From positions 1 to 26,731 of the IMG/VR virus record IMGVR_UViG_3300024259_000136: a DNA stretch of 26,731 nucleotides; one strand, 5' to 3'. Below are positions 4,694-24,060 of the stretch, piece after piece. This DNA comes from a virus. Both the position numbers and the translations under genes were made by a program. The notes beneath the pieces were generated by a model, which was not told the origin of the DNA, did no database searches, and worked only from the letters and a program-made list of their open reading frames with translations. Positions within the stretch are counted from its first letter, which is position 1, and every line of letters starts with the position of its first letter.

Positions 4694-5860
4694 TCAGATA
4701 ATAGGGCTTCTATCGAGATATGTCAACTCATGCTCGGCGATCCCCCGGAACACCTCGTAGATCTGCTGTGGGACTACGGCATTCCCTAGGCACTTAAGTC
4801 TGTCCACCCGCTTGGGAACCCCATTAGCCACTCTACCCACGTCGGGTTCAACGAGCCACCAACTGTTGAACTCAGTGTCTCGTCCCCGCGGCTTCCCCTC
4901 TGATTCGCCCCCCCATGCGCCCCGTCCGATGCCCTGATTGTTGGGAACATCTTGACCGCCAGCGTCAGCGGTGGAGTTGACACGTCCCCTTTGTCCCGCC
5001 TTATTGTCCAGGTCTCCTCGCACTCGTCCGTTGTCTTGCCTGCTCTGGGCGTTGGCCAGAGTTCTGCTGCCCCGACCTGTTCCTCCAGATTTCCCTTCCC
5101 CCTGTCGTACCAACAAGCTGGGGAGCGTTCCATCCCTACTCGCGGCGTACCCCACAATAAAGACTCGGTTTCTTCGGTGTAAGGCTCCGACATCGACAGC
5201 GCCGTAACTACACCAGCCGACAGAGTACCCCATTTCGGCCAGGTCATTGACCACTTCTCCAAAGACCCGTCCAGCATCAATTGTGAATAGTCCTGGTACA
5301 TTTTCAGCCACGACCCATCTGGGTCTCGCTTCGCCAATGAGTCTCCTGAACTCAGGCCAGAGGTTACGGCTGTCAAGAGTGCCTTGACGTTTACCCGCAG
5401 TGCTGAAAGGTTGGCAGGGGAAGCCGCCGGAGAGAACTGTGAGTCTTTGGCCATCGCCGTCGCCAGATCGTCCCCGCCGCTCTCCTCCCTGTTCACCCTC
5501 GCAAAGTCTGGACCCGATGGGCTGCCCTTCGGCGTCGGCCACAAAACTTGATTCCGGAGTCTCTGTGCCGAAGTCCTCGGGCGCCTCCCTTCCTGTGCCG
5601 CATCTATCCCCGCTTGAACGGTCTTGGGGCCGTCGCTCTTGTGATCCTCTACGGTTGGCGTGAGCCACAAGTTCGTTGATGGTTTCTCCTGTGACTCCCC
5701 TGACATCTCCAAACAGGGCAACATCTGGCCAGTGTTTTTCGAGGACTTTGATCGCATACGCATCAATCTCCACCTGTCCTATCGTTTCGAATCCCGCCCA
5801 TTCAGCGGCGAGGTCTATCCCCCCGATCCCGGTGAAGAGGCTCATGTGGGTCAACGTCAT
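4694..5860 (-). CDS. C5-cytosine DNA methyltransferase
   Basis: 388 residues. Motif I is SLFTGIGGIDLAAEWAGF (7-24); motif IV is GGFPCQPFSTAG with catalytic Cys149; motif VI is AENVPG (185-190); motif VIII is RRNRVFIVG (229-237); motifs IX/X are near RVDRLKCLGNAVVPQ (351-365). The enzyme transfers a methyl group from S-adenosylmethionine to cytosine C5, probably protecting phage DNA from host restriction. No cognate nuclease is seen, so it looks like an orphan enzyme. Between motif III and motif IV (about residues 65-140), and again before motif IX (about 240-335), the chain is Gly/Arg/Asp-rich and low in complexity, about 65 residues longer than usual in the first case. Those stretches are where a second, out-of-frame ORF is most protein-like. 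The ATG at 5858-5860 has GGAGGAG before it; upstream in-frame codons run back into the preceding gene. Confidence 0.93.
   Translation of the reverse strand: MTLTHMSLFTGIGGIDLAAEWAGFETIGQVEIDAYAIKVLEKHWPDVALFGDVRGVTGETINELVAHANRRGSQERRPQDRSSGDRCGTGREAPEDFGTETPESSFVADAEGQPIGSRLCEGEQGGERRGRSGDGDGQRLTVLSGGFPCQPFSTAGKRQGTLDSRNLWPEFRRLIGEARPRWVVAENVPGLFTIDAGRVFGEVVNDLAEMGYSVGWCSYGAVDVGALHRRNRVFIVGYAASRDGTLPSLLVRQGEGKSGGTGRGSRTLANAQSRQDNGRVRGDLDNKAGQRGRVNSTADAGGQDVPNNQGIGRGAWGGESEGKPRGRDTEFNSWWLVEPDVGRVANGVPKRVDRLKCLGNAVVPQQIYEVFRGIAEHELTYLDRSPII
4786..5763 (-). CDS. Out-of-frame ORF nested inside the methyltransferase gene (possible overprinted protein)
   Basis: A 325-codon ORF on the same strand, in the +1 frame, lies wholly within the methyltransferase gene. 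It repeats a W-P-T-P-like motif five times: LWLTPTVEDHKS, LWPTPKGSPSG, LWGTPRVGMERS, LWPTPRAGKTTD and MFPTIRASDGAHGG. It ends with SLNPTWVEWLMGFPSGWT. From memory (not checked), proteins with WPTP repeats and a terminal NPxWVEWLMGFPxGWT are common in phage annotations near C5-methyltransferases. The segment SPAASPANLSA is the shifted reading of methyltransferase motif IV. A GGTGGAG motif lies four bases before the ATG at 5761-5763. It may be a real second product or a conserved shadow produced by constraints on the enzyme; I cannot decide from one sequence. Confidence 0.45.
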   Translation of the reverse strand: MRMRSKSSKNTGQMLPCLEMSGESQEKPSTNLWLTPTVEDHKSDGPKTVQAGIDAAQEGRRPRTSAQRLRNQVLWPTPKGSPSGPDFARVNREESGGDDLATAMAKDSQFSPAASPANLSALRVNVKALLTAVTSGLSSGDSLAKRDPDGSWLKMYQDYSQLMLDGSLEKWSMTWPKWGTLSAGVVTALSMSEPYTEETESLLWGTPRVGMERSPACWYDRGKGNLEEQVGAAELWPTPRAGKTTDECEETWTIRRDKGDVSTPPLTLAVKMFPTIRASDGAHGGANQRGSRGDETLSSTVGGSLNPTWVEWLMGFPSGWTDLSA

Positions 5861-6275: not shown

Positions 6276-6458
6276 TTAATCCTCCTTGACCGGGACGCAC
6301 ATCCCGTATCCCTTAATACTACAGAAGCTGGATCTGTCGTGGCACTTGAAGAGGTGGTGCTCGTCGCAGACCTCAACTGGCGAATGTGGGGTGATGTGGG
6401 TGCAATCCTTGTCCGGGCAATCACCGGCGTGTTCACAGAGATAGGTTTCCTTACTCAT
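6276..6458 (-). CDS. Cys-rich small protein, 60 aa
   Basis: 60 residues with seven cysteines and several histidines: YLCEHAGDCPDKDCTHITPH, VCDEHHLFKCHDRSSFC, and GMCVPVKED at the end. The spacing suggests a structural zinc or iron site rather than a catalytic domain. The ATG overlaps the preceding stop (TAATG) and the TAA is directly followed by the regulator's GTG. No family recognised. Confidence 0.65.
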   Translation of the reverse strand: MSKETYLCEHAGDCPDKDCTHITPHSPVEVCDEHHLFKCHDRSSFCSIKGYGMCVPVKED

Positions 6459-6955
6459 TATTTGCCGCCTTTCTGTTCTTCCATGAGTCTTATAACAGTC
6501 TTCACGAAGTCAATGTAGAATGGTCTGTAATGGTCTTTCAACCCTTCGCGGCGGCAGTTGTCACGGGTCATGTATTTCAACCATTCTTCTGGGGTTTTGG
6601 TGTGACAGCCTGATGTGATAACGTCACCCGATACAGTCATCGGGTAGAAGGTCATCTGGAATGTCAAACCGTTAAGACCATCGGGTACATTGACCCCGTC
6701 TCCCAGGCTGACCCCGGCTCCCAGGCTGACCCAGTCTCCCAGTCTGACCCCGGCTCCCAGGCTGACCCCGGCTCCCAGGCTGACCCCGGCTCCCAGGCTG
6801 ACATCGTCTCCCAGGCTGACCCCGTCTCCCAGGCTGACCCAGTCTCCCAGTCTGACCCAGTCTCCCAGGCTGACCCCGGCTCCCAGTCTGACCCCGGCTC
6901 CCCGCCAAACTTGTAATTCACTCCCGTCCGGGTTGATGTGCTTTGTCAGTTTCAT
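6458..6955 (-). CDS. Hexapeptide-repeat protein (probable left-handed beta-helix)
   Basis: 165 residues. After a short head (MKLTKHINPDGSELQVWRG) come about eleven near-perfect six-residue repeats of the form V-(S/R)-L-G-(A/D)-(G/W/D). This periodicity matches the left-handed parallel beta-helix seen in hexapeptide transferases, here in unusually regular form. A C-terminal domain follows, with YPMTVSGDVITSGCHTKTPE and EEWLKYMTRDNCRREGL. I recall this tail following similar repeats in other phage hypothetical proteins, but no activity is known and I see no acyltransferase catalytic pocket. I chose the ATG at 6953-6955 because GAGGAGGAT precedes it; the frame remains open upstream only as a shadow of the previous gene. 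The repeats are also an 18-bp DNA repeat. Confidence 0.8.
   Translation of the reverse strand: MKLTKHINPDGSELQVWRGAGVRLGAGVSLGDWVRLGDWVSLGDGVSLGDDVSLGAGVSLGAGVSLGAGVRLGDWVSLGAGVSLGDGVNVPDGLNGLTFQMTFYPMTVSGDVITSGCHTKTPEEWLKYMTRDNCRREGLKDHYRPFYIDFVKTVIRLMEEQKGGK
6691..6906. repeat. 18-bp tandem repeat, 12 units, in coding sequence
   Basis: Twelve consecutive 18-bp units run from 6691 to 6906 on the plus strand, consensus TGACCCCGGCTCCCAGGC. Variation is concentrated at a few positions (CCGGCT, CAGTCT, CCGTCT; GGC or GTC at the end). Each unit encodes one complete six-residue turn pair shifted in phase, so gain or loss of units keeps the reading frame of the hexapeptide-repeat gene. Units 2, 4, 5 and 6 are identical, which suggests recent slippage or unequal recombination. 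Confidence 0.95.
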
Positions 6956-6965
6956 ACAATCCTCC

Positions 6966-7103
6966 TCAGTTAACGCTGAATAGTTCGTGGTCGGTGGCGT
7001 CCATCTCCCACCGTTCGCCAATTCCCCGGAGCGCGAAGAGTAACTCCCGGTAAGTGTAGCGGCCTGCGGCGACCAGCATCTTGAGTTCCTCATACGGTGT
7101 CAT
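6966..7103 (-). CDS. Hypothetical protein, 45 aa
   Basis: 45 residues, MTPYEELKMLVAAGRYTYRE then LLFALRGIGERWEMDATDHE. Its ATG overlaps the previous stop (TAATG), and its own TGA precedes the GAGGAGGAT ribosome binding site of the hexapeptide-repeat gene. It is predicted helical by eye. No family recognised; its place in the chain of coupled genes is the main support. Confidence 0.6.
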   Translation of the reverse strand: MTPYEELKMLVAAGRYTYRELLFALRGIGERWEMDATDHELFSVN

Positions 7104-22710: not shown

Positions 22711-24060
22711 CTAGATCGGATACAGGTAGATGTAGCGAACAGTCGCGTCGCCAACGCACCTGACGCGCAGGCGCATGTCGGCAGTCTCGCCGCACGTCGC
22801 GGTATCGAACGGGATCGCGGAGTCCTCAACGCCAGCGGCGGCGGTCAGTTGAAGGAAGTAGCCGTTCGCGTTCACACCGTCGTAGCGGATCAGGGAAGTG
22901 TAGTAGAATCCGCCGCTGTCCTCGATGTCGATGCCGTAGCCGCCATTGACGGCGAGCTGTTCCAGCCGGATCCCCGCCAGCGCGTTGGCCGACTCGCACC
23001 TGATACGCAGACCGTAGTCCGGATACGAAGTGCCGCCGCCGCCCTGGTCGACCTGGATACCGATGGAGTCGCCTTCGTTGTCGTGGAGCAGGCCATTCAT
23101 GTAGACCGACACGCCGATGAACTTACCATTGACTCCGGCTTCCGAGGGTGTGATGGCGCTCGTGGCGTCCTGGTCCATCGTCGCCCTGATGCAGGCGATC
23201 TGATCGGTCAGGGTGATGGTCTTGCCGGGGTTCAGAAGGTAGCACTGACCACTGATACCCAGGATCTGGTTGATCGTCTCGTCGGCCGCGGTGGCCGGGT
23301 GGAAGTATTCCAGCGCGTGGACGCCGATCATGTTCTGGATACCGTGCTGGATATCCTGGCGGGTGTAGTAATTGTACACGCCGCCCGCGGTGATATCCCC
23401 CGTGGTGAGCATCTGCTGCCTCATGCCATTGATGTAGTCGGTCAGGATGCCGACGGTGAAGACAGTGGACTCCAGGTGGTTACCGGTGGTACCCCAGGCG
23501 ATGGGGTCGGTGGTCGTGCCCTTGACGTGATCCAGCCCCTTGTTGGCGATGTTGGCCATCAGTTCGTCGCCAAAGTGAACCTTGACAGCGATGACACCGG
23601 ATCCACCGGCCACAACGCTACCCAGCGCGTAGCCGAACGGGATCTGGACGACGGTGTTGGAAATCTTACTGATCTCCGCGTCGCCGGTACCGTCCGCATC
23701 AGCCGCGCCCGCAAGCGCGCCGCAGCGGATGTAGAGCCGGTCACCGATCTCGATGGCGCGGTCGCCATCATCGTCCTCGGCGTAGACGGTCAGGTTCCAG
23801 ATCCCCTCGGTGTCAAGGGCGATCAGGTCGGTCGCTGCGGCGGCGCTGTTAAACGCCACACCAACGGCCAGCCCGTAGGTGGTGGGTACCCCCGAATCAC
23901 ACAGGACAACGGGTTCGCCCTTGTCGACGAAACCATCGGCATGGTACGGGTGGATCAGTTCGGCCTCGTAGACCGTCAGGTGACGGCCCTCGTAGGTGCT
24001 TGATACTTCAGTACCGGCATCAAGCGAACCGGTATAGACTCCTGCTGTTACTCCAGGCAT
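22711..24060 (-). CDS. DUF2190-like head decoration protein with long C-terminal extension
   Basis: 449 residues. Residues 27-162 (GLAVGVAFNSAAAATDLIAL, GIWNLTVYAEDDDGDRAIEI, GDRLYIRCGALAG, FGYALGSVVAGGSGVIAVKV) match DUF2190, a small phage head decoration family usually about 110 residues long. The rest, almost 290 residues (GLDHVKGTTTDPIAWGTTGN, NGMRQQMLTTGDITAGGVYN, DYGLRIRCESANALAGIRLE), is a beta-rich domain I cannot place. Such extensions occur on head fibres and may contact the environment or host surface. GGAGGCATAATC precedes the ATG. It follows the protease gene, the usual decoration-gene position. Confidence 0.7.
   Translation of the reverse strand: MPGVTAGVYTGSLDAGTEVSSTYEGRHLTVYEAELIHPYHADGFVDKGEPVVLCDSGVPTTYGLAVGVAFNSAAAATDLIALDTEGIWNLTVYAEDDDGDRAIEIGDRLYIRCGALAGAADADGTGDAEISKISNTVVQIPFGYALGSVVAGGSGVIAVKVHFGDELMANIANKGLDHVKGTTTDPIAWGTTGNHLESTVFTVGILTDYINGMRQQMLTTGDITAGGVYNYYTRQDIQHGIQNMIGVHALEYFHPATAADETINQILGISGQCYLLNPGKTITLTDQIACIRATMDQDATSAITPSEAGVNGKFIGVSVYMNGLLHDNEGDSIGIQVDQGGGGTSYPDYGLRIRCESANALAGIRLEQLAVNGGYGIDIEDSGGFYYTSLIRYDGVNANGYFLQLTAAAGVEDSAIPFDTATCGETADMRLRVRCVGDATVRYIYLYPI

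Follow-up and report, generated by a model that had tools for sequence, protein, structure and literature searches.

A nested reading frame in a phage C5-cytosine methyltransferase gene most likely encodes the missing half of the enzyme and recurs, mostly unannotated, in hundreds of unrelated phages and prophages

Two-polypeptide C5-cytosine DNA methyltransferases have been described. M.EcoHK31I (and M.EaeI), a restriction-modification enzyme that recognizes YGGCCR, has motifs I-VIII and X in a large subunit and motif IX in a smaller one, and its predicted TRD is placed in the large subunit (PMC3404938). The small polypeptide is probably encoded within the large gene in another frame (Lee, Kam and Shaw, 1995). 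In M.AquI (CYCGRG), one subunit carries motifs I-VIII, and the second carries the distal variable region together with motifs IX and X (PMC3404938). Splitting C5 methyltransferases between motif VIII and the TRD gives complementing halves (PMC3404938; PMC5944983). The multispecific enzymes of the Bacillus phages SPbeta, phi3T and rho11s appear to carry several recognition modules between motifs VIII and IX in a single chain and a single frame (domain-swapping work cited in PMC2413257). Among phage annotations, the nested or split ORF has been met case by case, as the "g50 internal gene" (gp51) of Redbud and as paired "DNA methylase" genes in SEA-PHAGES records, without a stated function or generality. 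The PHROG family phrog_1008 contains such proteins under the label "DNA methyltransferase," which does not say that its members are nested or lack the catalytic motifs. No report of the general phenomenon was found in literature searches that did not extend to subscription papers.

The window analyzed here was a stretch of 26,731 nucleotides from a virus (IMG/VR record IMGVR_UViG_3300024259_000136), with a phage gene order of helicase loader, replication initiator and exonuclease on one side and tail and head genes on the other. A C5-cytosine methyltransferase gene on the minus strand (alpha) contained a second ORF (beta) in its +1 frame (Table 1). The preliminary description, which had noted this ORF, its five W-P-T-P-like repeats and their dual readings in the two frames, was correct on these points. 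However, it had also claimed all core motifs for the methyltransferase frame, whereas no canonical motif IX was present there and this motif lay in the +1 frame. The approximately 65 extra residues before motif IV were explained by two extra beta cassettes located in that insert (5670-5545 and 5544 to about 5450). Motif IX in beta was identified by pattern and position, and it gave no significant match on its own in Pfam or PDB profile searches. Searches of Pfam and NCBIfam with beta returned no family, and none of 14 control genomes matched the phrog_1008 profile.

Table 1. Coordinates of the alpha and beta genes and their motifs and cassettes in the window.
Position	Strand	Feature	Support
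4694..5860	-	alpha gene, C5-cytosine DNA methyltransferase, 388 aa, ATG at 5860, AGGAGG upstream; motifs I, IV, VI, VIII and X, no canonical motif IX	PF00145, E 2.6e-41; phrog_363, E 4.8e-75; HhaI/HaeIII in PDB
4786..5763	-	beta gene nested in the +1 frame of alpha, 325 aa from ATG 5763 (326 from TTG 5766); starts TTG 5766, ATG 5763 or ATG 5757	phrog_1008, E 2.1e-34; family-wide stop depletion, codon-position pattern and internal RBS
5768..5775	-	AGGTGGAG, possible Shine-Dalgarno sequence for beta	inference; weak on its own, lies in conserved alpha motif II codons
5810..5842	-	alpha motif I (SLFTGIGGIDL)	
5402..5428	-	alpha motif IV, catalytic Cys (GGFPCQPFS)	
5288..5305	-	alpha motif VI (ENVPGL)	
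5153..5182	-	alpha motif VIII (LHRRNRVFIV)	
5545..5670	-	beta cassette 1, repeat LWLTP at 5670, LWLTPTVEDHKS...	inside the pre-motif-IV insert of alpha
5449..5544	-	beta cassette 2, repeat LWPTP at 5544, LWPTPKGSPSGPDFARVNREESGGDDLATAM...	24-27 of 31 residues shared with loci L060, L161, L232, L159 and L145, changes mostly at beta codon position 3
5062..5157	-	beta cassette 3, repeat LWGTP at 5157, LWGTPRVGMERSPACW...	
4951..5061	-	beta cassette 4, repeat LWPTP at 5061, LWPTPRAGKTTDECEETW...	22 of 32 residues shared with locus L286
4852..4950	-	beta cassette 5, repeat MFPTI at 4950, MFPTIRASDGAHGGANQRGSRGDETL...	shared with actinophage LPTPRASDGxKGGPNQRGS cassettes
4795..4851	-	motif IX, in beta (LNPTWVEWLMGFPSGWTDL)	pattern, position and alignment; E. 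coli Dcm reads LTPRECARLMGF at that place
4796..4840	-	alpha pre-X segment VGRVANGVPKRVDRL, read over motif IX of beta in the other frame	both frames conserved here
4766..4789	-	alpha motif X (LGNAVVPQ); beta stops just before it	

To test whether the open +1 frame exceeded chance, 80 IMG/VR loci were collected with the alpha protein only, and all 80 had an open +1 ORF matching a profile of beta. The same was true of 80 of 80 loci found with beta and of 76 of 77 bacterial-genome loci in which both reading frames were found, giving 236 of 237 informative viral and bacterial loci of the three searches. Synonymous codons were then shuffled, which keeps the alpha protein and its codon use. For the window alone, motif IV to IX held 0 stops in the +1 frame against 4.0 expected. 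In the 64 mappable alpha-selected loci, 73.7, 131.4 and 96.1 stops were expected in IV-VI, VI-VIII and the variable region, and 0, 0 and 2 were observed (obs/exp 0.00, 0.00, and 0.02), which amounted to 2 against about 301 from motif IV to just before X (IV..X-20). Upstream of IV-20 and downstream of X the ratio was near or above 1, and the +2 frame, used as control, stayed near 1 almost everywhere. The borders of depletion matched the borders of the ORF. Two phages intended as negative controls, Xanthomonas phage phiXaf18 and Klebsiella phage S9a, turned out to carry beta too, and so did the Methanomethylovorans plasmid pMETHO01; their open +1 ORFs ended GGQLNPAHSRWLMGYP... or GTLNPVWTEWLMGLP... 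and were unannotated, so the nested gene reaches further than our searches showed, including an archaeal plasmid. E. coli dcm, which has motif IX in its own frame, served as the negative control instead, with 9 +1 stops against 11.4 expected. One otherwise typical beta ORF, that of locus L161 (722-1843), was interrupted by one in-frame stop (SGIWP*SGTMRNG), and loci L154 and L164 had one +1 stop each, possibly as a result of decay, error or readthrough.

The frame under selection was examined in 80 independent close pairs, using blastn-alignable stretches. Amino-acid identity in the alpha against the beta frame was 0.884/0.539 before IV-20, 0.807/0.651 in IV-VIII, 0.638/0.855 in the variable region, 0.805/0.862 just before X and 0.839/0.560 from X on. 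In the variable region, frame-0 position-1 changes exceeded position-3 changes in 56 pairs against 1 (P 8e-16), and the opposite held in 69 against 2 after X. Thus, the gene switches its main coding frame in mid-course and back, and just before X both frames are conserved. Conversely, when the beta protein was kept and its synonymous codons were shuffled, about 779 stops were predicted in the alpha frame across the variable region of loci with motif IX in beta and X in alpha, and 2 were observed, although membership in this class partly presupposes an open alpha frame. This indicated that alpha must stay open to reach motif X. The preliminary description had named frequent +1 stops in relatives as its refutation and had asked for a selection test; the former was not found, and the latter showed purifying selection in the +1 frame, stronger than in the enzyme frame over the variable region. 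The window has no close relatives, so its own beta was judged through the behavior of its family.

An ATG with a Shine-Dalgarno match of four or more bases was found in the +1 frame upstream of motif IV in 131 of 218 loci, against 7.5% of shuffled sequences. In Clostridia, the pattern AAGGAG-N6-ATG recurred 13 codons before motif IV, with N-termini like MSEQDYEQLTLFPxDSPAS. This favored internal initiation over frameshifting. The start in the window is further upstream because two extra cassettes sit in the insert before motif IV.

Natural REARRANGEMENTS of the gene pair fell into three classes, the definitions of which partly presuppose which frame is open. In class (a), to which the window belongs, motif IX was in beta and motif X in alpha (78/80, 78/80, and 68/80 loci of the three sets, the last from genomes). 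In class (b), motifs IX and X were both in beta and alpha stopped soon after motif VIII, for example in loci L242, L274, and L281 and in actinophages such as Murai (gp5/gp6) and Stasia (gp75/gp76). There, alpha-frame stops returned to chance (269 observed, 288 expected). Adjacent overlapping "DNA methylase" genes in SEA-PHAGES records of Mycobacterium, Arthrobacter, Gordonia and Streptomyces phages (loci L167-L172) are alpha and beta of this enzyme, and the beta start is annotated short of the conserved upstream part in several. In class (c), which comprised actinobacterial prophages, LPTP cassettes, IX and X were in one chain with the catalytic core (loci L354 and L367-L382; Gordonia phage Gudmit and prophage prophi91-4). 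In loci L238, L272, L355, and L365, IX and X were in alpha but cassettes remained in the +1 frame. A tree of the catalytic core, based on few columns and with rough support, required about 9 changes for class (b) and 3 for class (c), so the architectures interconvert. The fusions are Rosetta-stone evidence that alpha and beta make one enzyme. The AF2 model of a natural fusion (L377) had a confident MTase core, motif IX helix and X, and its best Foldseek hits were the HhaI and HaeIII methyltransferases. However, its cassettes were not modeled (pLDDT about 30), and the AF2 model of the window beta alone was poor (pLDDT 55).

A total of 1111 cassettes were cut from 369 proteins, with a median of 39 aa and usually 2-4 per protein. 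Single-linkage clustering placed them in one group, and they were therefore compared directly in pairs. Relatives of window cassette 2 were read in the alpha frame in the fusions L354 and Gudmit. Of the pairs of cassettes, 199 were at least 65% identical although their catalytic cores were under 50% identical, and 162 of these sat at different places in the array, although the pairs are not independent. Exchangeable modules in the place of the variable region suggested target recognition, but this remains an inference, as the strict TL consensus of known TRDs (PMC2413257) was found in only 16 of the 1111 cassettes and was otherwise only loosely resembled. In the chromosome of a Roseovarius genome (loci L255 and L256), five places had identical scores for the beta profile, suggesting several near-identical prophages or an assembly artifact.

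Taken together, the +1 ORF is conserved coding sequence, and its best explanation, with a probability of roughly 0.85 in the absence of protein-level evidence, is a nested gene for the second subunit of a two-polypeptide C5-cytosine methyltransferase. Alpha would supply the SAM-binding and catalytic large domain (motifs I-VIII, then X), and beta, starting at its own internal ribosome-binding site just upstream of motif IV in most relatives, would supply motif IX and an array of about 39-residue cassettes that take the place of the variable, target-recognizing region. Between motifs VIII and X, the alpha frame is mainly an open linker, read so that the ribosome can reach motif X. It is inferred that alpha and beta bind each other, that both are needed for activity and that the cassettes set the target sequence(s), probably to protect phage DNA from host restriction. 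The motif layout is that of M.EcoHK31I, with motif IX only in the small chain, and the nesting probably is as well. However, selection and cassettes here put the variable region in beta, the gene is a phage gene with no restriction gene seen beside it, and it was found in hundreds of loci, with multi-cassette arrays. The layout of M.AquI is that of class (b) relatives, whereas in the window motif X is in alpha and beta is wholly nested. In contrast to the Bacillus phage enzymes, the array is in a nested gene, and recognition by its cassettes is unproven. We speculated further that phage methyltransferases of this superfamily keep their DNA-recognition half in an overprinted gene, that the array of swappable cassettes lets one catalytic subunit methylate several target sites, and that cassette shuffling in the nested frame, while keeping alpha open, is how phages change the sites they protect. 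This is about as likely as not.

Three other explanations were considered. The first is that beta is an independent protein, such as an inhibitor, regulator or anti-restriction factor, that merely shares the locus. Nested genes often encode accessory factors, and beta has no assigned enzymatic domain. However, alpha has no motif IX without beta, the same cassettes, IX and X appear in one chain with the catalytic core in fusions, and alpha is truncated after VIII when X moves to beta. This explanation is very unlikely; of the roles proposed in the preliminary description, a partner of the enzyme fits best and a regulator has no support. The second, about equally improbable, is programmed frameshifting, in which ribosomes start in alpha and shift +1 after motif VIII to make a fused enzyme with the cassettes and motif IX. 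The natural in-frame fusions show that such a chain is viable, but stop depletion and the internal Shine-Dalgarno plus ATG begin upstream of motif IV, far before any useful shift site, and in class (a) motif X would need a second shift back, although slippery sites were not systematically sought. The conserved shadow, which was the other alternative in the preliminary description, was rejected, barring a common error in the alignments, by the shuffles, by the conservation of beta rather than alpha in the variable region and by the normal +1 stop density of dcm, even though parts of beta lie over strongly conserved alpha motifs and alpha is still the more conserved frame in IV-VIII (80.7% against 65.1%).

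New here, as far as the searches show, are the generality of the arrangement, the selection in both frames with its borders, the internal RBS, the interconverting architectures and the cassette array in beta. It would be one of the most widespread nested same-strand gene pairs, seen in named phages of Klebsiella, Xanthomonas, Mycobacterium, Arthrobacter, Paenibacillus, Lacticaseibacillus, Microcystis, and Synechococcus. Many records annotate only alpha and call it a complete enzyme, which could explain failures to get activity from cloned alpha. The selection signature is clear, in that one frame is the enzyme at both ends and the other frame in the middle, with natural gene fusions and splits as controls, and the arrangement makes the old question of how phages change methylation specificity directly testable.

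Two other regions of the window were notable. An ORF at 6458-7093 on the minus strand had many hexapeptide-like repeats of the type GVSLGDWVSLGDG / GAGVSLGA and matched phrog_5353, which is of unknown function. In addition, a 384-codon open frame (22849-24003, plus strand) was antisense to a 449-codon ORF (22711-24060, minus strand), and neither matched a PHROG.
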